A stretch of 64,000 nucleotides of DNA. Source: Jeotgalibacillus aurantiacus (GTDB lineage: Bacteria > Bacillota > Bacilli > Bacillales > Jeotgalibacillaceae). The DNA is taken from positions 124,001 through 188,000 of the forward strand of contig NZ_JACNMS010000001.1 of NCBI RefSeq assembly GCF_020595125.1, read 5' to 3'. The position numbers and the translations under genes are program-made. The stretch's first letter is position 1; every line of letters begins with the position of its first letter. Shown here piece after piece: positions 34,078 through 63,791 of the stretch. The notes under the pieces were generated by a model, which did not search any database, was not told the DNA's origin, and was given only the letters and a program-made list of their open reading frames with translations.

Positions 34078-34129
34078 GGGGACGGAGCGGGTGTTCTTTT
34101 TTCGAGAAAAGAACACCCGCTCCGTCCCC
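34078..34129. repeat. REP-like palindrome 1 (perfect 52-bp form)
   Basis: Arms GGGGACGGAGCGGGTGTTC and its exact complement around a TTTTTTCGAGAAAA centre. It sits between divergently starting genes (SLH protein and LCP), so here it is not a gene-end terminator. Confidence 0.9.
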
Positions 34130-39521: not shown

Positions 39522-39595
39522 GGGGGACGGAGCGGGTGTTCTTTTTTGCCAGCTCTGTCCCCTTTACTCAAAAAAGGAACGCCCGCTCCGTCCCC
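39522..39595. repeat. REP-like palindrome 3 (74-bp, inverted inner unit)
   Basis: Outer arms GGGGGACGGAGCGGGTGTTC / GGAACGCCCGCTCCGTCCCC; the inner segment AGCTCTGTCCCC is in the opposite orientation to that in most other long copies, so this copy is the reverse form. Its last C gives the G of the TAG stop of the permease gene. Confidence 0.88.
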
Positions 39596-40972: not shown

Positions 40973-41032
40973 GTATGTCCCCCTTTTAAAGAGGGACATA
41001 CCTGCTAAAAAGGCACAGGCGCTCCGTCCCCC
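40973..41032. repeat. REP-like element 4 (diverged)
   Basis: The right arm CGCTCCGTCCCCC is intact; the left part has changed to a separate small hairpin GTATGTCCC / GGGACATAC. Its end is shared with the TAG stop of the sigma factor gene. Confidence 0.75.
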
Positions 41033-42655: not shown

Positions 42656-42730
42656 GGGGGACGGAGCGGGTGTTCTTTTTTAAAAATAAAGGGACAGAGC
42701 CTGCGAAATTGCACACCCGCTCCGTCCCCC
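42656..42730. repeat. REP-like palindrome 5 (75-bp form)
   Basis: Outer arms GGGGGACGGAGCGGGTGTTC / CACACCCGCTCCGTCCCCC with inner GGGACAGAGC; lies between the SLH/InlB gene end and the ComK-like gene start. Confidence 0.9.
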
Positions 42731-42733
42731 AGT

Positions 42734-45700
42734 TTAATTAGCAGCTTCCATAATCTCATCAAACGCCCAATGCCATTCTGGAACATCAGAAAACTTACGC
42801 TCTTTCCCTTCCTCAGGCAATCTTTCAAAGATGCGATTGAGCACTTTGACTGCCTGTGCACGGGTAAGTGGTGCATTTGGCTGGAAGGTCCCGTTTTCGT
42901 ATCCTGTCATGATGCCAAGCTGACTGATTTGTTCGATCATTTCAGAAGCCCAATGATCTTTCGGAACATCTGTAAATTGATACGTCTCCGTTGAGGCTTC
43001 ACATAAAGAATAAGTGTTACTTCCGCTGCACTTTTGATCAATCCATCTCGTGGCGATAGCGGCCATTTGTGCACGTGTGATGGAGTGGTGCGGACGAAAT
43101 TCACTGGCTGTGTGTCCAGTCATGATACCCGCTCCCCGCACGTATTCAATCTCATTAACTGCCCATGCGCGTTTTAGATCTGAAAATGGGCTGACATTTG
43201 CAGCCGGAACGTTACTTTGCGTGAGCTGCCTTGCAAGCATGGCAGCCATTTGTTGACGTGTAATGGCCGCTTCCGGACGGAATGTGCCGTCTTCAAAACC
43301 TTTGATATAAGGATTAGATGCAGGCTTTTCAGGTTCTGTCGGCTCCTCACCTTCGTCTGGGACATCAGCAAGCTCAAGTGTCAATAATGTAAAGGTAGAA
43401 AATTTGTTCACTTCAAATTGGACTGACTTCTGTCCGTCTGGAAGATCAATAACGGCCCCTTTAATCACTTCTTTTGTGCCATCACTGTGCTCTATAAATA
43501 CGGCAAGCGACTGTAGCTGACCATTGGATATTCCTTGTGGGAGCGGCAATGTCAGCGTGACCGGCCGAGATTGCAAGTTTGTTTCAATGGTCATTGGACG
43601 GCCCAATACTTTAATCGTTGCACCAGCACCAGCTGTTTCCTTTACCATTTCTTCCTGTTTGGCCCGATCCTCTATCTCATTTTTACCGTTTTCCTCTTTT
43701 ACAGGTACCACGCGGAAGTATAAGTCGTCTGTAAACCCGGATAAAGAAGAAACTGGAATATCAATAGTGACATCATTCATATCAATTTGAACAGAGATAT
43801 CATCCTGTGTGAGATTATCGAGGGAATCCTTTGGAATGCTGATGTTTGTTTCTATCACTTCATCGTTCGCATCCGGAATCACGATCCGGGCGATTTTATT
43901 TGTACTTGCCTCAGCAAATTCCTTTACCTTTTCAGGTGTAAGCAGCACGTCATCACTTTTCGTTCCATCCGTATTGGTGGAACGCTTAATAGGCGTTTGA
44001 ACAATCGTACCACCGGTTGAACCATCCGTTACATCCACGACAATTTCTTCGACGCTTGGATCAGGTGTAGGTTCCGGGTTCGGTGATGGGCCAGGTACCG
44101 GAGCAGAGTTTTGATTCCATTTTGCGTAAAGAGTCAAGTTCTGCGTGACCGGTGTCGTGAAAGCATATAGTGACGTTAACGTGTCATTCGTATACCAGCC
44201 GCCAAACTGATAGCCTGAGCGGGTTGGATTCGCTGGCTGAGTCAGCGTGTGTTCGAATAAAACATTCACAGGTAAAACATCACTTCCACCTTTCGAGTCA
44301 AAAGTAACCTGGTATTCATTCGGCGTCCATTTGGCAATCAGTCGGACTGATCCAGTTAAAACTTCATCAAAATCAAATGGTTCAGAATCATTTTCATTCA
44401 CATACCAATCCACAAATGTGTGACCTGTTCTAACGGGATGAGCCGGTTTCGTTACTTTTCCTCCTGGAATAACGGATTGACTTTGTACATCTTCAGGGTC
44501 AACTCTCGTATCAAATTCCACGAGATAGTCCCATCGTGCGTACAATGTCAAATCCCCGGTTACCTGGGTTGGAAAATCGAAAAGAGTTTCAAATGTCTGA
44601 TCAGTAAACCAATTGCCGAAAATATAATCAGCTCGTAATGGATCATCAGGAGACTCCAAAATAGAATGATACTCTTTTGTAACAGTTTCTGTCAGGTCAT
44701 CATAATTAAAATCAAAAATGATCTGATATTCATTAATCATCCATTTTGCATATAGGGTTAAATCACTTGACACTTCCGTATCAAAATCGTACTCCATTGT
44801 CAGCTGTTCATCTGTATACCAGCCAACAAACGTATGGCCTGCTTTCACAGGGCTCTCAGGTTCCGTATAAGTCTGATCATATTCAACTGTTTCAGGGGTG
44901 ACAGATGTGCCGTCATTTGACACGTAAGTAACGACATAAGTGTTGATACTCCACTTCGCATACAGCGTCAAATTACTCGACACTTTCGTATCAAAATCGT
45001 ACTCCGTTGTCAGCTCCTCATCTGTGTACCAGCCGACAAATGTGTGACCTGCTTTTACAGGACTGGTAGGCTCTGAAAAAGTCTGATCATAGTCCACTGT
45101 TTCAGCCGGGACAAATGTGCCTTCATTTGATACATAAGTAACTGAATAGGTGTTAATATCCCATTTTGCATACAGATCGGTATCTGCATAAATAGCTGTG
45201 CCTGGATCAAAAGATTGTGTAAAAGCTTGATCTGTGTACCAGCCTGCAAAGGTATGACCTGCTTTGATAACAGTAAGGTCACCATGCAGAACACCGCCAT
45301 CATTCACAATTTGAGAGACTGGTCCGGTTCCTCCGTTCGTGTTAAAAGTAACCGTGTGCTTTTTGATTTCCCACTTAGCATAAAGCGTGAGATTTCCGTT
45401 TGGAACAATTAATGTATCTCCTGGTTCATACGTCGTCCCCAAACCATCAGCCTGTGTATTCCAGCCTTTGAAATCGTGTCCCGTCTTTACCAAAGAACCT
45501 GTATTCCCTGAAACGGTGACAGTCTGCCCGGCATAATTCTGAACAGACGCGGGGACTGAACCATCTACGGCTCCGTTATCGCTATAACTAATCTCATATA
45601 AAGGTGAAAGCCTCTCTATGACAACCGTATACGTTTTGACAGTCAAATCAGGCGCAGTCACCACAATGCTGATTGTGTTGAGTCCAACATTTAAAGGGAC

Positions 45701-47575
45701 GGTTTGCTGATTTCCAGCCTGACCATTAATCGTTACCGTTGCATCCTGATCAGCAAGCAATACGTCGATTACCGCCGAGTCGACTGTATTGACTACGGAT
45801 TGATTGTAAGAAAGCGTATCAGCAGTGAAATCATCTACGTGCATGTTGTTCACCGTAATGTCCATCAGATCGGCGTTGGATGATTTCCAGATAGCATATA
45901 AAGTCACATTAGCGGGCGGCATCTGGATAGTTTGACCGCTACTATAGTCAGTTCCTGATCCATTTGATGCTGTATTCCAGCCCATGAATGAATGGCCTGA
46001 CTTTTGCAGGTCACCTTCAGTCGCAAGCGTGACAGACTCCCCTTCAGGGAAAGGGCTTGAAGGCGCAGGCACAGTCCCACCTTCATTCCCATTCCCATTG
46101 TAAGTAATGGTATAGGTAGGGATAAGCTCCCACTGTGCGTAAAGGGAAACGTCAGTATTCGGCATCGGGAACGTTTGTCCTGCAGCGTATGCAGTTCCTG
46201 AACCATTCGCTGCCGTGTTCCATCCAGTAAACTCATAACCCGCTTTATCCATTGATCCTTTTGTTGCAACTATGACTGTAGCATCTTGATTATAAGCACC
46301 TGAATCAGCCGGAACACTGCCAGAAGTTGAACCATTTCCGTCATAAGTGACTGAATAAGTTGCAAGCGGCGTCCATTTTGCGTAAAGGGTGATGTTTTGC
46401 TGAATGTTCGTAATCTGATCAGCGTTCTGATAAACTGTTCCGCTGCCATCCTGATTGAGGGTCCAGCCTGAAAATGTGTGACCGGCTTTCGCAAGGTTCC
46501 CTGTGTTTCCGGAAACTAAAACGGAAGCACCGTCTTCAACCGTTGCGCTCACAGGCAAAGAACCTGAATCTGCATTATTCCCATTGTAGGTAACGGACCA
46601 GGTCTTCTTTGTTGTAAAGCTGACAGCTTGGTAAATTGATTTATTACCGGCCGCATCTTTTACAATGACATTATAGTAATAGGTTGTATTCGGCGTTAAC
46701 CCGGTAAGACTCGCTGAAAGCTTGTTCGCTTCAGAATTGCCAATTGAGGTACCGTTTGTTTCAATATTTTGTACCGTGTCCAGGTTGTTTGATGTTGATT
46801 GGTAAAGCTGGTACTCCAGATTCGCTGCTTGTGTCACATTATCCGACGCTGCGTTCCAGTTGAGGGAAGCCGTGGTGGATGTGATGTTTGAAGATGAAAT
46901 GGCAGGATTAGATACAGTTGGTGGTATTGTGTCTCCTGGTGAGATGCCGGTTAGTTGTACCGGACCAGTATTAGTATTGAGATTTCCTGCAATGAATGTT
47001 AAATATTCATCGGGAGTAAAACTTGATACCTGTGGGGTAAGCACTAATGTAATGTAATCATCATCTCCAATATTCTCTTGTGTAAATAAAGATCCTATAT
47101 TAATTTCAACAGGACCTGATACACCATGATTAAATGTTTTAAAAATACTTGCACTATTAGGTTTGATATCAGGATGCGAATTTATTATCTGGTCAGTGAC
47201 CCAGTTATCATTGCCGCCTACACGAATTTCCATAGTAAGTGAACCGCCAGGATTTATAATTGTATTGTAAACCGGATCTTCAGAAATGTTTAACCTCAAA
47301 ACTGCATTAGAGTAGTCCATACTCGGTGGAGCATAGAATTTCAAGTAAGCATAACAACAAAAATCTTCTGGTGAAGGCTCTGATCCACCCAAACTCACAT
47401 CTAAAACATTTTGAAGAGCAGCAAGATCACCTTCACGCCCAACCGACACCTGCCCCACCAATGTCCCTGGCTCCATAGCAGCTTCCGCAACGTTTTGCGG
47501 CACACTAAATGAATGAACAAAAAGCAGCACAAGGGACATTAGCATGACATATACTCGAAACTTCTTTTTGTTCAT
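42734..47575 (-). CDS. Giant SLH-anchored adhesin-like protein with InlB B-repeats
   Basis: The 1613-residue protein has a signal peptide (KFRVYVMLMSLVLLFVHSFS), a unique N-terminal domain (about 35-220), a fibronectin III domain (about 225-325), ten InlB B-repeat (Flg_new) units of 65-80 residues ending in LYAKW-type motifs (about 330-1165, interrupted after unit 3 by a cadherin-like beta sandwich), a proline-rich linker, a domain of about 200 residues and three C-terminal SLH domains. Units 6 and 7 are almost identical, a sign of recent duplication. It is likely a surface fibre or adhesin. It is the last gene of an operon after three tail-collar proteins, 20 bases from the nearest. ATG start with GGGAG upstream. 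Confidence 0.9.
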   Translation of the reverse strand: MNKKKFRVYVMLMSLVLLFVHSFSVPQNVAEAAMEPGTLVGQVSVGREGDLAALQNVLDVSLGGSEPSPEDFCCYAYLKFYAPPSMDYSNAVLRLNISEDPVYNTIINPGGSLTMEIRVGGNDNWVTDQIINSHPDIKPNSASIFKTFNHGVSGPVEINIGSLFTQENIGDDDYITLVLTPQVSSFTPDEYLTFIAGNLNTNTGPVQLTGISPGDTIPPTVSNPAISSSNITSTTASLNWNAASDNVTQAANLEYQLYQSTSNNLDTVQNIETNGTSIGNSEANKLSASLTGLTPNTTYYYNVIVKDAAGNKSIYQAVSFTTKKTWSVTYNGNNADSGSLPVSATVEDGASVLVSGNTGNLAKAGHTFSGWTLNQDGSGTVYQNADQITNIQQNITLYAKWTPLATYSVTYDGNGSTSGSVPADSGAYNQDATVIVATKGSMDKAGYEFTGWNTAANGSGTAYAAGQTFPMPNTDVSLYAQWELIPTYTITYNGNGNEGGTVPAPSSPFPEGESVTLATEGDLQKSGHSFMGWNTASNGSGTDYSSGQTIQMPPANVTLYAIWKSSNADLMDITVNNMHVDDFTADTLSYNQSVVNTVDSAVIDVLLADQDATVTINGQAGNQQTVPLNVGLNTISIVVTAPDLTVKTYTVVIERLSPLYEISYSDNGAVDGSVPASVQNYAGQTVTVSGNTGSLVKTGHDFKGWNTQADGLGTTYEPGDTLIVPNGNLTLYAKWEIKKHTVTFNTNGGTGPVSQIVNDGGVLHGDLTVIKAGHTFAGWYTDQAFTQSFDPGTAIYADTDLYAKWDINTYSVTYVSNEGTFVPAETVDYDQTFSEPTSPVKAGHTFVGWYTDEELTTEYDFDTKVSSNLTLYAKWSINTYVVTYVSNDGTSVTPETVEYDQTYTEPESPVKAGHTFVGWYTDEQLTMEYDFDTEVSSDLTLYAKWMINEYQIIFDFNYDDLTETVTKEYHSILESPDDPLRADYIFGNWFTDQTFETLFDFPTQVTGDLTLYARWDYLVEFDTRVDPEDVQSQSVIPGGKVTKPAHPVRTGHTFVDWYVNENDSEPFDFDEVLTGSVRLIAKWTPNEYQVTFDSKGGSDVLPVNVLFEHTLTQPANPTRSGYQFGGWYTNDTLTSLYAFTTPVTQNLTLYAKWNQNSAPVPGPSPNPEPTPDPSVEEIVVDVTDGSTGGTIVQTPIKRSTNTDGTKSDDVLLTPEKVKEFAEASTNKIARIVIPDANDEVIETNISIPKDSLDNLTQDDISVQIDMNDVTIDIPVSSLSGFTDDLYFRVVPVKEENGKNEIEDRAKQEEMVKETAGAGATIKVLGRPMTIETNLQSRPVTLTLPLPQGISNGQLQSLAVFIEHSDGTKEVIKGAVIDLPDGQKSVQFEVNKFSTFTLLTLELADVPDEGEEPTEPEKPASNPYIKGFEDGTFRPEAAITRQQMAAMLARQLTQSNVPAANVSPFSDLKRAWAVNEIEYVRGAGIMTGHTASEFRPHHSITRAQMAAIATRWIDQKCSGSNTYSLCEASTETYQFTDVPKDHWASEMIEQISQLGIMTGYENGTFQPNAPLTRAQAVKVLNRIFERLPEEGKERKFSDVPEWHWAFDEIMEAAN

Positions 47576-47594
47576 TTTGTGATGCTCCCTTCCT

Positions 47595-48128
47595 TTACTG
47601 TTCTCTGATTGGGTAAATTCCATCATCTATACAAATGATATAATTTAATGCAAGATAAGGCTGCTGGTTGTTATGCGGCTGATTTCCGCCAACCGGATTC
47701 AACGCATCTGCTTTCATCGACACTTTGGTGTCCGTGCCCGACTTATAAGGTTTTCTGCTTCTCCCACTTTCTGTACACCAGATCGCCTGCTCAGGGCTTG
47801 ATACACCGGTAGTTGATGCAGAGCTTTGTGGGATGTGATTATGCAGGGGTGTCTGGGATTCATTTAATGTTACTGTTGGATCTCCTTTTTTATCACCGAT
47901 TTTCCAGTAGATTGTTCCACCGGTTGCCTGACCCTGTTGAACCGGCACACGGTCTCTTAAATCAGGAAGGTTAAAGTATGTCCTGCTGTCTCCACCATAA
48001 ACAGATCCAATCACACTAAATAACCCCTGATATTGATTCACATTCAATGGTGATCCGTCACAAAAAGCCCATCCTTGTGGTGCATAAGTGCCTGAAAAGA
48101 TTTTGATTTCTCCAAGGTATGAATTCAT
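47595..48128 (-). CDS. Phage tail collar domain protein (MdpB-like) 3
   Basis: The 177-residue protein has the tail collar domain at its N-terminus (YLGEIKIFSGTYAPQGWAFCDG, then GGDSRTYFNLPDLRDRVP) and ends YLALNYIICIDDGIYP. It is the third of three tandem paralogues. No signal peptide is present. The domain is found in tail-fibre tips and in bacterial microcystin-dependent-protein-like clusters of unknown function. AGGAGTG precedes the ATG. Collar proteins may bind sugars or form trimeric fibres; this is inference. Confidence 0.9.
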   Translation of the reverse strand: MNSYLGEIKIFSGTYAPQGWAFCDGSPLNVNQYQGLFSVIGSVYGGDSRTYFNLPDLRDRVPVQQGQATGGTIYWKIGDKKGDPTVTLNESQTPLHNHIPQSSASTTGVSSPEQAIWCTESGRSRKPYKSGTDTKVSMKADALNPVGGNQPHNNQQPYLALNYIICIDDGIYPIREQ

Positions 48129-49981: not shown

Positions 49982-50683
49982 ATGAATTCATATATTCTGG
50001 TTTTGACATCAGGTCAGGGAACATTTGATTTCCTTAGCCCTATTATGCATGAACATAGCTTTATTCCCATCACGGTGAAAGACATGACTCAGATAAAAGA
50101 GGTCTTTAAAACATTCGATTTAAAGCTGATTTTGATTATAGTTGATGCAAAAAATGATTCTGGATTTGAATGGTGCAAAGAAATTAGATCCACTTCCATC
50201 ATACCTATTATTTTCATAAGCCCGCTTTATGACGGCACCGAAGTAATCAGAGGCCTTGATATGGGTGCCGATGACTTTATCATCATACCTACCGATCCAA
50301 ACGTACTAGCAGCCAGAATCAGAGCAACTCTAAGACGTTCACAATATCATTCACAGGCAGCCAAAACAGCTAACACAATCTCCCTTAACAAATCGTTTCA
50401 CACAATCACACTTAACTTCCAAAACCAAAAAGCCGACATCAACGGAACAGAAATCATCCTGTCATCAAAAGAATTCCACATCCTGGCCACCCTGATCCGT
50501 CAGCCCAACCAGCCGATCAGCCAATCAGACCTCTACACCACCATCTGGGGAACCGACAGCCTCGGCGACACCCGCACCCTCAAAGTCCACATCAGCCACC
50601 TTAGAAAAAAACTTGAAACTGCAGCACCTGGTACATTTACGATTAATGCTGTTAGGGGTGTGGGGTATGAACTTGGAGTATAG
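49982..50683 (+). CDS. OmpR-type regulator with degenerate receiver
   Basis: The 233-residue protein has an N-terminal receiver-like domain (1-120) and a C-terminal winged-helix DNA-binding domain (about 135-230; SSKEFHILATLIRQP, HISHLRKKLE, VRGVGYEL). In the receiver the acidic pocket of strand 1 is missing (ILVLTSGQG instead of a DD pair) and the switch lysine is replaced (DDFIIIPTDP instead of KPF); the central Asp of IIVDAKND remains. No histidine kinase gene is adjacent. It may act without phosphorylation and control the divergent GNAT/collar/SLH operon. The TAG stop uses the first G of REP-like palindrome 6. Confidence 0.85.
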   Translation: MNSYILVLTSGQGTFDFLSPIMHEHSFIPITVKDMTQIKEVFKTFDLKLILIIVDAKNDSGFEWCKEIRSTSIIPIIFISPLYDGTEVIRGLDMGADDFIIIPTDPNVLAARIRATLRRSQYHSQAAKTANTISLNKSFHTITLNFQNQKADINGTEIILSSKEFHILATLIRQPNQPISQSDLYTTIWGTDSLGDTRTLKVHISHLRKKLETAAPGTFTINAVRGVGYELGV

Positions 50684-50756
50684 GGGGACGGAGCGAGTGT
50701 TCCTTTTTTGGAGCACAGGGACGGAGCCGGTGAAAGTGAACATCGGCTCCGTCCCC
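50683..50756. repeat. REP-like palindrome 6, adjoining the RAYT gene end
   Basis: GGGGGACGGAGCGAGTGTTC left arm, inner GGGACGGAGC, right arm CGGCTCCGTCCCC. It fills the whole space between two converging genes and its first and last bases are part of both TAG stop codons. Confidence 0.92.
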
Positions 50757-51538
50757 TATCTCGCCTTTCTAATCAACCCAACCGAAACACCTAAAATCCG
50801 CGACAGCTGCCGTTGGCTGATTCCCTTAATTTGTTTGAGTTGAGCAATGAGCTGATTGCGTTGTTCGACCGGGAGATTTTTGACTTGAGTGTGGGGAAGT
50901 TTTCCGATGTAGTGTTTCATTTCGTGTAAGGCCTGCTCGTCAGTGAGTGGATTTTTGGTAAGGACAGGTTGCTTGAGGCATTCGTCAGGAGTTGTTTGTT
51001 CGTTGTATTCTTTGAATTTCTGAAATGAGAGGTCAGGATTATCGGAAAAATGGTGGAATATTTCTTGTTTGTTGACGAGAGATGAAAAATAATCGTATTG
51101 CCCGTAATAGCTTTTACAGCTGCTCCAGTCCCATTCGGAGGGTCGCTTTACTAAATTTGCTTTTACAGGATTTTGGTGAACATAACGGATGACCGTGAAT
51201 AAATATCTAATTGATTCCACCGTTTCGCTTCTAAACCTGTCATAAAACACTGGACCGCTCGCCTGGTATTTCCAGTTGTAATACATCGCATAACTACAGG
51301 CGATCCTCTGTATCAATCTTGAGACCGTTAGCTCTCCTTCTTCGAGCACAAGATGAACATGATTATCCATTAAACACCACGCATATAACTTAAACCCCTT
51401 ATCAAGCTTCCCTTTCACTAGAATCTCCAAAAACTTCCGGCGATCCTGCTCATCATGAAAAATCCACTGATAATTAATACCGCGCAGCATGACATGGTAC
51501 ATACCTGTTGAACTCTTTTTTCTTGGTTTTCTTGGCAT
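50756..51538 (-). CDS. REP-associated tyrosine transposase (RAYT, Y1_Tnp / IS200-like)
   Basis: The 260-residue protein belongs to the single-strand, HUH-type tyrosine transposase family. It shows MYHVMLRGIN, the HUH motif in DNHVHLVLE (about 70-78), GPVFYDRFRSE, and the catalytic Tyr in VIRYVHQNPVKANLV. A C-terminal helix-turn-helix-like tail (GISQRQLSRILGVSVGLI) follows. It should bind and nick REP hairpins as single-stranded DNA. The start is an ATG preceded by AGGAGG; a longer frame runs into the palindrome and is rejected. Palindromes 6 and 7 flank the gene directly at both ends, and more than a dozen related copies occur nearby, which is the diagnostic RAYT context. Confidence 0.93.
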   Translation of the reverse strand: MPRKPRKKSSTGMYHVMLRGINYQWIFHDEQDRRKFLEILVKGKLDKGFKLYAWCLMDNHVHLVLEEGELTVSRLIQRIACSYAMYYNWKYQASGPVFYDRFRSETVESIRYLFTVIRYVHQNPVKANLVKRPSEWDWSSCKSYYGQYDYFSSLVNKQEIFHHFSDNPDLSFQKFKEYNEQTTPDECLKQPVLTKNPLTDEQALHEMKHYIGKLPHTQVKNLPVEQRNQLIAQLKQIKGISQRQLSRILGVSVGLIRKAR

Positions 51539-51557
51539 TTTAAAAACCTCCTTTTTT

Positions 51558-51610
51558 GGGGGACGGAGCGCCTGTTCCTTTTTAGAAAAAGGAACAGGCG
51601 CTCCGTCCCC
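51558..51610. repeat. REP-like palindrome 7, upstream of the RAYT gene
   Basis: A near-perfect 53-bp hairpin: GGGGGACGGAGCGCCTGTTCC with full complement. It lies just before the RAYT ribosome site and its last base forms the TAG stop of the next gene. Confidence 0.93.
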
Positions 51611-52191
51611 TAGATGATGTAAAGCCACTCATCCACCACCCGCTTGCACTCCTCTTTTATTTTTCTCACGACCCATCGTTTTGGGATCTCGTCATTTACT
51701 GTGATAGGTGCTTTTGCATAATGTGGCAGCAGGAGCAGGAGGAGCTGATATAGCATGAGGGTTTCGCGGTATTCTTTTTCGAGTCCTTTGAGACCCTGAT
51801 CTGATGAGAGGTAGCGCTTGAAGTAGGTGTCATAATGATTTTGGATGTGTGTTTCTATATGACTGGTGAGGTTTCGTTTAAATTCCTGAAGATCGGCAAG
51901 GTGTTCGTTTTGTCTCAGACATTCAGCTAAATGAAATTCGATTTCCTTGATCATTTCAATATAAAAAACGATTTTTTTCAGTAATTCATGCTTGTAATCA
52001 TCCGGTTCAGAATAGATATAGTTTAGCTGGGTCTGCTTATTTTCTACTAATTTAATTAATTCAACGTGATTAATTTGACGAAGTTGTCTGCTAACATCGT
52101 CTTCGATCATGGCAGACAGGCGATCTTTCTCCGTTTGGACCTGATTCATTTCAACTGGTTCAAGGGATTGCTGCTTTTTAAAAAAGGACAT
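51610..52191 (-). CDS. Hypothetical helical protein
   Basis: I do not recognise this 193-residue protein. It is rich in Glu, Lys, Leu and Gln, mostly helical by composition, without signal peptide or membrane helix until a hydrophobic stretch near residue 150 (LYQLLLLLLPHYAKAP). ATG start with GGGGTGG upstream. It lies 30 bases after the LysM-NlpC gene end on the same strand, so cotranscription is possible. Its TAG stop shares its G with palindrome 7. Confidence 0.65.
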   Translation of the reverse strand: MSFFKKQQSLEPVEMNQVQTEKDRLSAMIEDDVSRQLRQINHVELIKLVENKQTQLNYIYSEPDDYKHELLKKIVFYIEMIKEIEFHLAECLRQNEHLADLQEFKRNLTSHIETHIQNHYDTYFKRYLSSDQGLKGLEKEYRETLMLYQLLLLLLPHYAKAPITVNDEIPKRWVVRKIKEECKRVVDEWLYII

Positions 52192-53608: not shown

Positions 53609-53662
53609 GGGGGACGGAGCGGGTGTTCTTTTTCGACGAAAAGAACACCCGCTCCGTCCCCC
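53609..53662. repeat. REP-like palindrome 8 in a divergent promoter region
   Basis: GGGGGACGGAGCGGGTGTTC and exact complement, 54 bp, centre TTTTTCGACGAAAA. It starts 10 bases from the -35 of the LysM-NlpC promoter and ends 16 bases before a TATAAT box (53678-53683) of the acetamidase gene. Confidence 0.92.
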
Positions 53663-55665: not shown

Positions 55666-55706
55666 GGGGACAGAGCTGGCTAAAAGGCACACCTGCTCCG
55701 TCCCCC
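55666..55706. repeat. REP-like element 10 (single 41-bp unit)
   Basis: GGGGACAGAGCTGGC...ACCTGCTCCGTCCCCC: only the right-hand unit of the long form, itself an imperfect hairpin. It begins four bases after the stop codon of the previous gene. Confidence 0.85.
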
Positions 55707-55825: not shown

Positions 55826-55876
55826 GGTAACGGAGAATCAATTTTTCGTTAGAAAAGGAACGCCCGCTCCGTCCCC
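55826..55876. repeat. REP-like element 11 (decayed left arm)
   Basis: Right arm GGAACGCCCGCTCCGTCCCC is intact; the left arm is changed to GGTAACGGAGAATC. A TATAAT box lies at 55883-55888, seven bases after the end. Confidence 0.8.
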
Positions 55877-55905: not shown

Positions 55906-56988
55906 ATGTTAATTGGAGTGTACAATGATCGTAAAAATCCACTGTCAGTTTTAACTCCGGAGCGGATTAAGGCTTATTTGGAAGTGGCTGCTGAACAATC
56001 TGTGGAGCTTGTGTTTTTCAGTATTGATGAGGTTGATTTTCAATCCTGTCAGATTCAGGGTAAGGGATTTGAGAATGGAACCTGGATCAATCGGTTAACG
56101 AACTTCCCTAAGTTAATTATGAATGATTGTTCAACTTCCCCTGATCGGGTTAAGCATCTTGATAAAGAGAAGTTACTTCGTTTAGAGGTTCCATTTTTAT
56201 CGCATTTGATTGAAGATAAGTTATCGATTTACCAACGTTTAGAGGGAAGTGAGGATTTTTCAGACCTGTTAATACCTTCTTATCCTCTGAGGACACTGAG
56301 AGATTTTTCACAGATTGTCAGAGAATCCCCTAAAAGCATCTTGAAACCAACCAATTCTGGAAAAGGGCAAGGGATTTTTGTTGTTACCAGAAAGAGCGAA
56401 CAATCGTTTATCTTTCAAAATGGTCAGAATAGATCCACATATAATAGATTCTTCACTCAAAAGATGATCAGTGACCTTTGTAAAAAAGGGAACTATATGA
56501 TTCAGCCTTATATCCCTTCATTAACGCTAGAAGGCCACGTCTTTCATATTCGGGTCCATGTGATGAGAAATTCAAAATCAGTGTGGACATGTGGAGCGGT
56601 CATTGCAGACATTGCCGAAAAAGGGTGGCAAATCAGCAATTACAAAGGCAACAAAACCATCCGTGCTATTGACTTATTACATCAACAATTTGAAAAAAAA
56701 GGAATCACGATGTATAACAACATCATCCAGCGCTCACTCAAACTCGCTCAACACATCGATCAATTCTATCCCTTTATGATCGACGAACTCGCATTTGATT
56801 ACGGTCTTGATCCCGACCACAACTTTCGACTATTTGAAGCCAACACCGGCCCAGAAATCATCACATTCGCAGAAACACGCGAAAAAGAACGCGCCAAACA
56901 TCGTATCGGACTGGCCAAAACAGTGGTGCATGCTTTAGAAAAAATTCCGTTAGAGGATAGAAAGGGAAAGCATTTTAAAATTCATTAG
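55906..56988 (+). CDS. YheC/YheD-family ATP-grasp protein
   Basis: This 360-residue protein is of the YheC/YheD ATP-grasp family known from Bacillus spore-coat associated proteins. Visible are the N-terminal domain (IGVYNDRKNP), SILKPTNSGKGQGIF (ATP-binding loop), MIQPYIPSLTLEGHVFHIRVHV, and DELAFDYGLDPDHNFRLFEANTGPE (metal-binding end). The enzymatic product is not known; ATP-grasp enzymes usually join a carboxylate to an amine. ATG start with AGGTGATG upstream. Its TAG stop uses the first G of palindrome 12. Confidence 0.87.
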   Translation: MLIGVYNDRKNPLSVLTPERIKAYLEVAAEQSVELVFFSIDEVDFQSCQIQGKGFENGTWINRLTNFPKLIMNDCSTSPDRVKHLDKEKLLRLEVPFLSHLIEDKLSIYQRLEGSEDFSDLLIPSYPLRTLRDFSQIVRESPKSILKPTNSGKGQGIFVVTRKSEQSFIFQNGQNRSTYNRFFTQKMISDLCKKGNYMIQPYIPSLTLEGHVFHIRVHVMRNSKSVWTCGAVIADIAEKGWQISNYKGNKTIRAIDLLHQQFEKKGITMYNNIIQRSLKLAQHIDQFYPFMIDELAFDYGLDPDHNFRLFEANTGPEIITFAETREKERAKHRIGLAKTVVHALEKIPLEDRKGKHFKIH

Positions 56989-57075
56989 GGGACGGAGCGC
57001 CCGTTCCTTTTTAGAAGCTCTGTCCCCACATAAAAGGGACAGAGCTCGTGAAAAAGCACACGCGCTCCGTCCCCC
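56988..57075. repeat. REP-like element 12 (88-bp inverted pair, BIME-like)
   Basis: Two complete ~40-bp hairpin units in opposite orientation joined at AGCTCTGTCCCC-ACATAAAA-GGGACAGAGCT. It is the full inverted pair of which the 75-bp copies look like shortened forms. It fills the space between two converging genes. Confidence 0.92.
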
Positions 57076-57078
57076 TGT

Positions 57079-59583
57079 TTATTTCAAAAACAACGACAAC
57101 ACCTTCGCAGCGTGTGCTCGTGTAGACGTGCCACGTGGGTCGAAGCTGCCGTTTTCTCTGCCGCTGATGTAGCCGAGTTCGGTTGCGGCGTCGATGTATT
57201 CGGTAAAGACGCTGCTGATGGCGCCTCGGTCTGTGTAGACTGAGTTATTTTCAGCATCGTATGCTTCTCCGTTTTTGACTTCATATGCACGCATGAGCAT
57301 GGCCACCATTTGTTCGCGTGTTACGCGCTCGTATGGGTTGAAGGTTGCTGTAGTTCTTGTTGTAATGCCGTTTTCTATGGCAAGTTCAATTTCCTGCTCG
57401 AGTGTGAGTTCACCATCACTCAGGCCAAGTGAACGCACGACCATGGATAGGAATTGTCCTCTGAGCACAGGATTGTTTGGCTTAAACATACCGTTTGCAT
57501 AACCTTTTACAACATTCTTTTCTGATAGATCATTGATGTAGGCTGCAGCCCAGAATTCTGCCGGCACATCGCTAAATGTTGGCTCTGCCGGGACTTCTGC
57601 TTCTGACTTCATGCTGAAGCGATAAACGCCAAAGCCTCTCTCATCCGTTTCACCTGTATAGCTGATGCGTCCGTCTGCATATTTTTCAGCAGCCGGGCTT
57701 GAAAGGAATGTCACGTTCAGGTCAGCGTCGATCGGCTTGATCTGCCAGTTCTGGTCTGCTGACGGGTTTACTTCGCCAAGCTCTGTGATGTAATCCATCA
57801 GGATCTGGCGGTTTTCTTCTGCTGAATCAACGACAAGTGGTGCATCTGCGAGACCCGGGAAGTTTCCTCCGCCGCCTGCACGGTAGTTATTGGTGATGAC
57901 GATAAATTCCTGGTCGTCAGAAACAGGTTCACCGTTGTATTCAAGGTTGACGATACGATTAGCATCTGCCGTTTTCAGCGTGCCGTCATTGTTATATTTA
58001 GCCGGTTGCGTGATGTCGATTTCGTAAGTCACGCCGTCGATTACGTCAAAGTTAAACGCAGGGAAGTCAGGGTTCAGGAGCTCCTGCTGTTCTGTTGAAT
58101 CCGGATCAACCTGATTGAATTTACCGGCTGACATTTCAAGCCACTCGCGCACCTGTGCACCTGTTAACTGAACGGCCTTTAATGTGTTGTCGTATAAATA
58201 AAGGTCACCTGCACTGCGGATAGTCAGGTCGCCTTCTGCGATGTCTGTGTATTCTTCAATGCTGTTTCGGCCTGCTTTAAATGGTGCCCCTGCTGACAGG
58301 ATTGGTGTGTCTGCAAGCTCTGGTGAGTTAAGGCGAATGTATTCCTCCACGTACCATTTCTGCGCATCCGTTACGATTTGTACCGATGGATCGTCCTCTA
58401 CTAAAGCAAAAAAGCTGTAGATCGGAGCCGTTGTTGTACCAAGTTTTCCTTCAGAATAGCTGATCGTTGCCTGATGATCCGCTTCAACGAATGAAGCAAG
58501 CTCTTCATTGATTTCCACATTGGCAATTGAGCGGTTGGCAGATTGAGAGTCTGTAACCTCCCACTCCCCATTTACCTCTTCAAGCGTCAGGTCGATCAGC
58601 CCGAGGTAGCCGCCGCCAAAGCCGGCCTGAACTGCAGGAACGCCGTTGATCGTTCCTTTGTCAGCATCAATATACGGAAGTACGCCATTTGCATCTTTAA
58701 AGCCCGAGCTTAACTGCGCGCCAGCTGGAGCAGGGAATGTGTTGTGCGTATGTGAAAACGTGATCGCATCAATGCCTTCCACTTCACTTAATGGAAGAAT
58801 CGCATTTTCAGAGAATGCGCCTTTTTCCGCCATCTGATCAAAACCTGTGTGCGCAATCGCAATAATCACGTCCGCGCCTTCTGCCTTCATCTGAGGAACG
58901 TACTTTTCAGCTGATTCCGCAATATCCTTTGAAATGATTTTGCCATCTAAATTTGCTTTATCCCACTGCACAATCTGCGGTGCGACAAAGCCGATATAGC
59001 CAACGTTGATCGTCTGTTCGTTACCTTCTTCATCTATAACCGTTTTCGGCACAATCTTATATGGATCATAAGCCGGCTGGTCATTTGACGGATCGTCATC
59101 CCCGTCATCTACATATGTATTTGCACTCACATATCCAAAATTCGCATCTCCATACACCTGCTCCATAAAGTCAAGTCCATAGTTGAATTCGTGGTTACCA
59201 AGCGTCACCATGTCATAGTCAAGCTCATTCATCACCTTGATCATTGGATGAATTTCGCCCTCTTTCACAGGCTCCACTTTCGCAAAATAAGTCCCAAGAG
59301 GTGTACCCTGAATCGTGTCTCCATTGTCCACAAGCACAGAGTTTTTCGCTTCAGCATGCGCCTGCTCAATGAGAGTCGCTGTCTTCAATAAACCAACATT
59401 CTGATTCATTGTTCCGCGATAATAATCGTACGGAAATACATTCGTATGCAAATCCGTCGTTTCCATAATCCGCAGCTTCACCTGATCACCCTCCGCTGCC
59501 TTCGCGCCATCTGCCAAAACAAAAGGTGTTACCAAAAGCCCCAACGTTAAAACCGATCCTGCAACCTTCCTGCTCTTACCCAA
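57079..59583 (-). CDS. SLH-anchored 2',3'-cyclic-nucleotide phosphodiesterase/3'-nucleotidase (CpdB-like)
   Basis: The 834-residue protein has a signal peptide, a metallophosphatase domain (about 33-310; IMETTDLHTN, VDNGDTIQG, TLGNHEFNYGLDF, IAHTGFD, FSHTHNTF), a 5_nucleotid_C domain (about 370-560; SAGAPFKAGRNSIEEYTDI, RAGGGGNFPGL) and three SLH domains (about 645-834). The TTDLHTN form of the first metal motif is that of CpdB-type enzymes, which hydrolyse 2',3'-cyclic nucleotides and 3'-nucleotides outside the cell. The start is TTG. It complements the SLH 5'-nucleotidase at 30507-32657. Confidence 0.93.
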   Translation of the reverse strand: MGKSRKVAGSVLTLGLLVTPFVLADGAKAAEGDQVKLRIMETTDLHTNVFPYDYYRGTMNQNVGLLKTATLIEQAHAEAKNSVLVDNGDTIQGTPLGTYFAKVEPVKEGEIHPMIKVMNELDYDMVTLGNHEFNYGLDFMEQVYGDANFGYVSANTYVDDGDDDPSNDQPAYDPYKIVPKTVIDEEGNEQTINVGYIGFVAPQIVQWDKANLDGKIISKDIAESAEKYVPQMKAEGADVIIAIAHTGFDQMAEKGAFSENAILPLSEVEGIDAITFSHTHNTFPAPAGAQLSSGFKDANGVLPYIDADKGTINGVPAVQAGFGGGYLGLIDLTLEEVNGEWEVTDSQSANRSIANVEINEELASFVEADHQATISYSEGKLGTTTAPIYSFFALVEDDPSVQIVTDAQKWYVEEYIRLNSPELADTPILSAGAPFKAGRNSIEEYTDIAEGDLTIRSAGDLYLYDNTLKAVQLTGAQVREWLEMSAGKFNQVDPDSTEQQELLNPDFPAFNFDVIDGVTYEIDITQPAKYNNDGTLKTADANRIVNLEYNGEPVSDDQEFIVITNNYRAGGGGNFPGLADAPLVVDSAEENRQILMDYITELGEVNPSADQNWQIKPIDADLNVTFLSSPAAEKYADGRISYTGETDERGFGVYRFSMKSEAEVPAEPTFSDVPAEFWAAAYINDLSEKNVVKGYANGMFKPNNPVLRGQFLSMVVRSLGLSDGELTLEQEIELAIENGITTRTTATFNPYERVTREQMVAMLMRAYEVKNGEAYDAENNSVYTDRGAISSVFTEYIDAATELGYISGRENGSFDPRGTSTRAHAAKVLSLFLK

Positions 59584-59682: not shown

Positions 59683-59757
59683 GGGGGACGGAGCGGGCGT
59701 TCCTTTTTACCAAAAAGGGGACAGAGCTGGTGATTTTGAACACCCGCTCCGTCCCCC
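59683..59757. repeat. REP-like palindrome 13 (75-bp form)
   Basis: GGGGGACGGAGCGGGCGTTCC, inner GGGGACAGAGCTGG, right arm GAACACCCGCTCCGTCCCCC; lies between two genes on the minus strand. Confidence 0.9.
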
Positions 59758-60956: not shown

Positions 60957-61027
60957 GGGACAGAGCGCACGTTCTTTTTTTAAGACTCAGGGACAGAGTT
61001 TGCAGAAAGGAACACTCGCTCCGTCCC
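60957..61027. repeat. REP-like element 14 (diverged)
   Basis: GAGGGACAGAGCGCACGTTC left, inner GGGACAGAG, right CTCGCTCCGTCCC. It lies in the 439-base gap 60780-61218, which has no gene but carries elements 14, 15 and 16. Confidence 0.85.
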
Positions 61028-61124
61028 TTTCTTACATGCAATGACCGATTGATAAATATGAATAAATAAAAAGTACCTATATGAGCAAAAAATGTATTCA
61101 AAAACCTCAATCCTTTTTTATCTC

Positions 61125-61164
61125 GGGGACAGAGCATCCTGAAAAGAACATCGGCTCAGTCCCC
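61125..61164. repeat. REP-like element 15 (single 40-bp unit)
   Basis: GGGGACAGAGCATCC...GGCTCAGTCCCC: single-unit hairpin with small mismatches. Confidence 0.8.
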
Positions 61165-61173
61165 ATAAAAAAA

Positions 61174-61208
61174 CGGAGTTGTGCAAAATGCACACCATCT
61201 CCGTCCCC
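61174..61208. repeat. REP-like element 16 (truncated)
   Basis: CGGAGTTGTGC / GCACACCATCTCCG hairpin ending CCGTCCCC, nine bases from element 15. The GGGGA start is missing from the left arm. Confidence 0.65.
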
Positions 61209-62615: not shown

Positions 62616-62686
62616 GGAGTGCGGAGCGCCCGTTCCTTTTTTAATAAAAAGACAGAGCTGCTGTTTTGAAAGCCCGCTCCGTTCCC
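62616..62686. repeat. REP-like element 17 (diverged)
   Basis: GGAGTGCGGAGCGCCCGTTCC left, inner GACAGAGCTG, right AGCCCGCTCCGTTCCC. Confidence 0.8.
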
Positions 62687-63717: not shown

Positions 63718-63791
63718 GGGGACGGAGCGCCCGTTCCTTTTTAGCAAGAAAGGGACAGAGATGGTGAAAAGACACACCCGCTCCGTCCCCC
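63718..63791. repeat. REP-like palindrome 18 (74-bp form)
   Basis: GGGGACGGAGCGCCCGTTCC, inner GGGACAGAGATGG, right ACACACCCGCTCCGTCCCCC; begins 95 bases upstream of one gene start and ends three bases from the next gene stop. Confidence 0.9.

Follow-up and report, generated by a model that had tools for sequence, protein, structure and literature searches.

How did a family of hairpins come to gather around a domesticated, transposase-like gene in a Gram-positive genome, and is that gene their source? The question is raised by a 64,000-nucleotide stretch of the Jeotgalibacillus aurantiacus genome (hereafter the window; C1:124001-188000 of the source genome G000, a 3.5-Mb assembly in 19 contigs). 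A first-pass annotation, made from the sequence alone, had placed there a RAYT gene between two palindromes in what it took to be a Firmicute; the host does belong to the Bacillota, genus Jeotgalibacillus. Hairpins with the arms of these two palindromes form a local cloud around the RAYT gene. This genome-wide crowding at the gene, the helix-turn-helix (HTH) tail of the protein and the lack of a GTAG foot beside the hairpins had all escaped the annotation.

The RAYT gene and its flanking hairpins

The Y1 (HUH/Tyr) protein comprises 260 amino acids counted from the ATG at 51538, the open reading frame called mechanically extending to a GTG at 51628. It is matched by Pfam Y1_Tnp at 4.9e-12. The motifs HVHLV and IRYVHQNPV on which the annotation had relied were confirmed (RYVHQNPV is visible directly in the sequence), and H60, H62, Y119 and N123 are invariant across the rows of 16 aligned relatives, so that the Y-x3-N-P signature and the Y1 core are both present. 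The gene lies, as had been read, directly between a 73-bp left and a 52-bp right hairpin in inverted arrangement, with arms GGGGACGGAGC. The last base of its TAG stop codon belongs to the left hairpin, which is also abutted by the TAG of the upstream gene; 5 bases separate its Shine-Dalgarno sequence, AAGGAGG, from the right hairpin, against which the annotation had set it. Folded as single-stranded DNA, the 52-bp palindrome reaches -32.3 kcal/mol (z = -12).

The identity of an ordinary IS200 transposase was rejected. In a tree the protein groups with RAYTs and apart from IS200/IS605, the branches of E. coli RayT and IS200 being long, and its best fold match is 4er8. Nor does the source genome hold the near-identical copies of a mobile IS200/IS605 element: it has two Y1_Tnp genes, 42-43% identical to one another, the second 31 kb from the first, i.e. 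few copies and unlike ones. By sequence and fold, the window protein is of the RAYT type, as the annotation had it.

Y1_Tnp genes often occur in twos or threes, ∼30-105 kb apart, at positions (in kb) 175/206 in G000, 233/308 in G001, 237/311 in G006, 81/165 in G011, 54/116 in G015 and 3738/3783/3841 in B. massilionigeriensis.

A local cloud of hairpins

Within the window the arms GGGGACGGAGC, allowing at most one mismatch, occur 36 times against 0.27 expected, a value reached in 0 of 100 shuffles. They fall in 16 groups, or 17 places once 61018-61208 is split, between 34078 and 63790 (Table 1). The range of 34.1-63.8 kb announced for the palindromes therefore holds, while their number does not: instead of sixteen more there are 15 further places besides the two flanking hairpins, some of them single arms only. 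A search of Rfam over window positions 33000-64000 returned no family at gathering score.

Across the source genome the exact arm occurs 102 times, against 0 for a reversed-pattern control. When the 100 of these 102 arms that were listed were reduced to 62 places, 18 lay within 20 kb of the RAYT gene (0.71 expected) and 26 within 40 kb (1.41 expected). The same held in J. alimentarius (92 arms in 43 places; 16 within 20 kb, 0.51 expected, and 27 within 40 kb, 1.01 expected) and in B. massilionigeriensis (82 arms in 51 places; 14 within 20 kb, 0.49 expected, and the same 14 within 40 kb, 0.98 expected). The binomial P values for these counts serve only to describe the crowding, since the places are not independent. 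The densest 60-kb stretch included the RAYT gene in all three genomes, and the densest 20-kb stretch in one of the three. J. terrae has 86 arms; the 68 among the matches listed are all at C2:58-119 kb, with a RAYT gene at 81 kb.

Table 1. The RAYT gene and the related hairpins of the window (window positions)
Feature	Position	Strand	Basis
52-bp hairpin, same arms	34078..34129	.	
52-bp hairpin, same arms, 6 bp past a stop codon	35132..35183	.	
73-bp element	39523..39595	.	
Single arm	41021..41031	-	
73-bp element	42657..42729	.	
73-bp hairpin at 3' end of RAYT gene; class B, imperfect, outer arms plus one inner half-hairpin	50684..50756	.	
RAYT (TnpAREP-like Y1 HUH/Tyr protein, HTH-like tail), 260 aa	50756..51538	-	Pfam, sequence
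Shine-Dalgarno AAGGAGG of RAYT	51547..51553	-	sequence
52-bp perfect palindrome, class A, 20 bp upstream of RAYT start codon, against ribosome site	51559..51610	.	
52-bp hairpin	53610..53661	.	
73-bp element, 2 bp past acetamidase/formamidase stop codon	55031..55103	.	
40-bp single hairpin: one inner-type arm and one outer-type arm	55666..55705	.	
Single arm	55866..55876	-	
87-bp element, inner arms present	56988..57074	.	
73-bp element	59684..59756	.	
Degenerate element(s), four arms, one mismatch each	61018..61208	.	
Single arm, one mismatch	62676..62686	-	
73-bp element	63718..63790	.	

Cognate cores beside different RAYTs

When hairpin cores were cross-tabulated over 15 RAYT neighbourhoods and three further stretches of G006, every RAYT neighbourhood was richest in one core and almost free of the others, the diagonal of this table being partly a matter of construction because the cores were picked from the same loci. 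The neighbourhood of the window RAYT held core GGGACGGAGC 18 times. Core GGGACGGAG[GT]T was counted 23 times in J. alimentarius, 18 in J. terrae and 15 at 311 kb in G006; core GGGACAGACC 7 times in G003 and 3 at 237 kb in G006; and core GGGACGTA[GT]A 12 times at the second RAYT of the source genome and 10 at its relative in the sister species G009. Three Bacillus had core GGGACGGTTC (24, 16 and 5), B. salacetis core GGGACGGTC (3) and Olsenella core GGGACGTTT (13), and two Coriobacteriaceae metagenome-assembled genomes had cores GGGACGGAGG (4) and GGACCGAGGT (11), the former overlapping core GGGACGGAG[GT]T by design. RAYTs of this kind in Jeotgalibacillus, Bacillus and Coriobacteriia have differing cognate cores beside them. 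The empty off-diagonal is not a product of the choice of cores, and neither is the pair in G006, where two RAYTs stand 74 kb apart with unmixed cores, one of these having just 3 arms. The counts range so widely that some RAYT loci are clouds and others scarcely more than a flanking pair. Among 36 RAYT loci, 34 of them distinct (L028 = L087, L029 = L089), 13 of the 34 had a non-AT-rich flanking 10-mer repeated at least 5 times in the locus. That several related RAYTs sit amid their own differing hairpins suggests that each copies its own hairpin mostly nearby.

Genus members with and without the gene

The genus was sampled with 12 genomes (GTDB family and genus coincide in this sample). Hairpins of the form GGGGAC(31-61)GTCCCC numbered 12 to 40 in the six members with a full-length HTH RAYT, and 0, 0, 2, 2, 2 and 19 in the six others; the reversed-pattern control gave 0-6. 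The exact arm occurs 0, 0 and 1 times in three members without any Y1_Tnp, as against 102 in the source genome. The count of 19 belongs to G004, which has no Y1_Tnp.

Structure and placement of the elements

The elements are of three classes. Class A (52 bp) has just the outer arms, class B (73 bp) adds one inner half, and class C, a minority, consists in the source genome of two inverted hairpins of ∼40 bp each (96-100 bp together), so that the BIME-like units foreseen by the annotation do exist as doublets. Class C has inner arms GACAGAGC and outer arms GACGGAGC, which, as we read it, leaves one strand of each hairpin with a G.T wobble and the other with an A.C mismatch. At one orthologous site G009 has a 97-bp form of which G000 keeps the same ends without the central 59 bp, and comparison of orthologues showed half-hairpin modules gained or lost at element edges. 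The bases most commonly flanking the hairpins were CAGG, CTGG or TAGG in the source genome, TTTG in J. alimentarius and J. terrae, and CATG in B. massilionigeriensis.

Many elements stand next to stop codons. Counting elements with a neighbouring stop, and excluding those inside open reading frames (2, 4 and 3, respectively), 28 of 40 lay within 15 bp of that stop in the source genome, 15 of 24 in J. alimentarius and 9 of 28 in B. massilionigeriensis; random placement in the same gaps would give 34%, 35% and 15%.

Tandem arrays of five arms were also seen, with a period of 59 bp in G001 (L117, C25:96.5-96.8 kb) and of 50 bp in G012 (L112, C1:3737.8-3738.0 kb).

Class of the protein and known systems

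HTH_23 matches 10 of the 16 aligned rows, all weakly (best 0.0016), the window protein scoring 0.044, under the cut-off; helices are present at the C-terminus of its structure model. This weakly scored C-terminal HTH points to subclass 2.1 of Quentin ('TIRYT'), and the window system is most likely a RAYT/REP-type system of that HTH-bearing class (Di Nocera's TIRYT). The TIRYT/TIRtron of Di Nocera 2013 (PMC3733652) corresponds to TnpAY1 subclass 2.1 of Quentin 2018 (PMC6006769), in which 20 of 26 TIRYTs fall and to which RAYT group 1 of Bertels 2017, as cited by Quentin 2018, also corresponds. Quentin 2018 searched subclass 2.1 both automatically and by hand and reports no REP-like sequences for it. 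Families of TIRs are recorded by Di Nocera 2013, where most REP families are said to be spread genome-wide. Shared with TIRYT/subclass 2.1 are the Y1 HUH/Tyr core, Y-x3-NP, the C-terminal HTH, flanking inverted repeats mostly starting GGGG, repeat families in some genomes, and dimers; of the arms compared with its GGGGWSAS motif, the inner arm GGGGACAG fits and the outer arm GGGGACGG is off at one base. Unlike what is described for that class, the three genomes counted here have strong hairpins, which occupy 43-62 places and are crowded at the gene.

Gathering of repeats close to a RAYT gene was reported by Nunvar 2010 (PMC2817692), who found REPs accumulating near rayt, in regions of up to ∼200 kb, in three marine Gammaproteobacteria and Thauera, and inferred preferential formation of REPs nearby. 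Those RAYTs, of the GTAG kind, are proteobacterial (Pseudomonas-like in Thauera), whereas the present ones are HTH-tailed, belong to Bacillota and Coriobacteriia, have no GTAG foot and come as several gene/core pairs. An inverted hairpin pair as a larger unit (here 96-100 bp) is shared with the REPIN/BIME of Bertels and Rainey 2011 (PMC3116915); however, most copies here are shorter and their spread is local, while the REPIN doublets of SBW25 are reported there to resemble random placement. Double-foot REPs, described for subclass 2.4 in Quentin 2018, are likewise long palindromes that carry one and the same foot at either end and could derive from an inverted doublet by loss of its centre, a kind of deletion also seen here, but their GT[AG]G foot, which lies 5' of the hairpin in subclasses 2.2, 2.4, 2.5, 2.7 and 2.8, is absent. 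No account of RAYT clouds in Firmicutes was found in the open-licence literature.

Origin of the cloud

The observations are probably best explained by a RAYT/REP-type system, likely of the HTH-bearing class, that copies its own hairpin mostly into nearby DNA. The RAYT would bind its hairpin as single-stranded DNA, and its HUH/Tyr centre would cut and rejoin it; the hairpin would thereby be copied, mainly to nearby DNA and often right behind a stop codon. Successive rounds of such short-range copying, starting from the flanking pair and from rarer distant seeds, would give a cloud around the gene and satellite clusters, and the compact palindromes may arise when a two-hairpin unit loses its central part. 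What the sequences establish is the gene with its fold and flanking hairpins, the cognate cores, the local cloud and the satellites that are older than a species split; movement, binding, cleavage, single-strand copying, a preference for cis or short-range action, and any regulation are what we infer from these arrangements.

Several findings weigh against this reading. The source genome has satellite clusters at C1:502-521 and 820-828 kb, and B. massilionigeriensis four more, all without any Y1_Tnp. The sister species G009 (∼50 contigs) has 68 exact arms and no orthologue of the window RAYT, its sole RAYT being 42% identical; this would be accounted for if G009 has lost the gene or if its assembly has a gap, and as its satellites lie at places orthologous to those of G000, they predate the species split. 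The 19 related hairpins of G004, which has no Y1_Tnp, are dispersed over 1.23-3.40 Mb and belong to another subfamily, mostly of the form GGGGACGGAGTT..TTTTTAGAATSATT... The window protein scores 68.7 bits against NCBIfam NF047646 (REP_Tyr_transpos), below its cut-off of 80. Neither a GTAG nor a GT[AG]G foot was found beside the hairpins of G000, J. alimentarius, J. terrae or B. massilionigeriensis. The other 21 of the 34 RAYT loci have fewer repeated flanks or none, and to these is added the partly built-in diagonal of the core table. Finally, J. alimentarius and J. terrae have most of their elements in common, the comparison of orthologous sites yielded no clean empty/occupied pair for a whole element, and no insertion was caught. 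The distribution of the exact arm among genus members speaks in part for the annotation's reading, but its proposal that the RAYT is the source of the palindrome family proved too simple in view of the second RAYT 31 kb away, the RAYT-free satellites, and the hairpins of G009 and G004.

Some of these points would suit a RAYT that is a mere passenger in a repeat-rich, variable surface-gene region, the hairpins being an ancient repeat of intergenic DNA that is retained for the structure it gives to RNA or DNA (at the 3' ends of mRNAs, or in topology). The satellites, the sister species lacking a matching RAYT and the hairpins of G004 would all fit, as would the abutting of elements on stop codons and the near identity of several of 15 orthologous pairs aligned between two species. 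However, the core found nearby varies from one RAYT to another and follows the gene, even within one genome, and the RAYT lies inside the densest 60-kb stretch wherever this was tested; we hold this explanation to be unlikely. That the hairpins are non-autonomous elements of another transposase, resembling miniature inverted-repeat transposable elements, with the RAYT among many genes flanked by chance, would agree with inverted repeats of 50-100 bp and with half-hairpin modules gained and lost at their edges, but RAYTs of several taxa bear their own core on both sides. This counter-argument is weak, as the genome-wide transposase search covered the Y1 family only; even so, we regard such an origin as very improbable.

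Compatible with local copying by the RAYT is the possibility that gene cassettes are bounded by the hairpins, with the segments between two of them gained, lost or shuffled as units by the RAYT or by homologous recombination between hairpins. The RAYT region is highly variable: its 92 kb in G000 and 80 kb in G009 have merely 12 scattered BLAST segments in common. In the clouds of J. alimentarius and J. terrae, all 5 indels of at least 250 bp had one end or both at an element; 9 of 10 indel ends lay within 60 bp of an element in J. alimentarius coordinates, as do 45% of the non-coding bases there. Some pairs show, in one species, a gene enclosed by two elements where the other species has a single element, and for a formamidase gene bounded by two hairpins in G000 the gene order is altered in G009. 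Against this, only 6 of 10 ends were that near when measured in J. terrae, in the G000/G009 satellites an element was touched by 4 of 9 indels, which is not clearly more than expected, the events are few and their ends not independent, and plain recombination between repeats accounts for deletions. Recombination between hairpins suffices for the variable region, with action of the RAYT being possible, and cassette boundaries are accordingly given a low, if appreciable, probability. We find it distinctly doubtful that the system goes as far as an integron-like device, in which hairpins would delimit units of one or two genes in a variable surface-gene region, a locally acting HTH-class RAYT would move or delete them, and each RAYT would keep its own island of interchangeable cassettes.

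Neighbouring features

The window hairpins lie within a cell-surface gene region, with large S-layer-homology-domain proteins at 42734-47626 and 57079-59583. The half-sites of a second family have mostly uniform orientation within clusters without full palindromes, with no consistent tie to gene strand or GC skew. To the right of the window (L004:4600-11640; C1:208.6-215.6 kb of the source genome), several plus-strand genes have behind them a terminator-like hairpin and an oriented site that ends in CGAATGAAACAGAATCTACGTCCCG, the 12 copies among the matches listed all facing the same direction; the genes include a duplicated pair (a small gene plus a nucleotidyltransferase-like one) and a GIY-YIG-like gene, named by eye. 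The stretch resembles an array of cassettes, with the second RAYT and comM next to it. Around the G009 relative of that RAYT (L078-L081; C22:81-124 kb), 17 of 19 GGGGACGTATATTTTGAATCATTCG-like sites share one orientation irrespective of gene strand.

Significance

How RAYTs spread their hairpins is still termed poorly understood (PMC8266576). Since local clouds were already known for proteobacterial RAYTs, what is added concerns the HTH-bearing class, the phyla and the pairing of genes with cores: in Bacillota, a RAYT class without REPs in a large survey has hairpin clouds that are strong, cognate and very local, and there are similar signs in Coriobacteriia. Where a genome has two RAYTs and unmixed cores, nature has set up an experiment on specificity and on action in cis or at short range, and laboratory hosts of the Bacillus type are readily manipulated.
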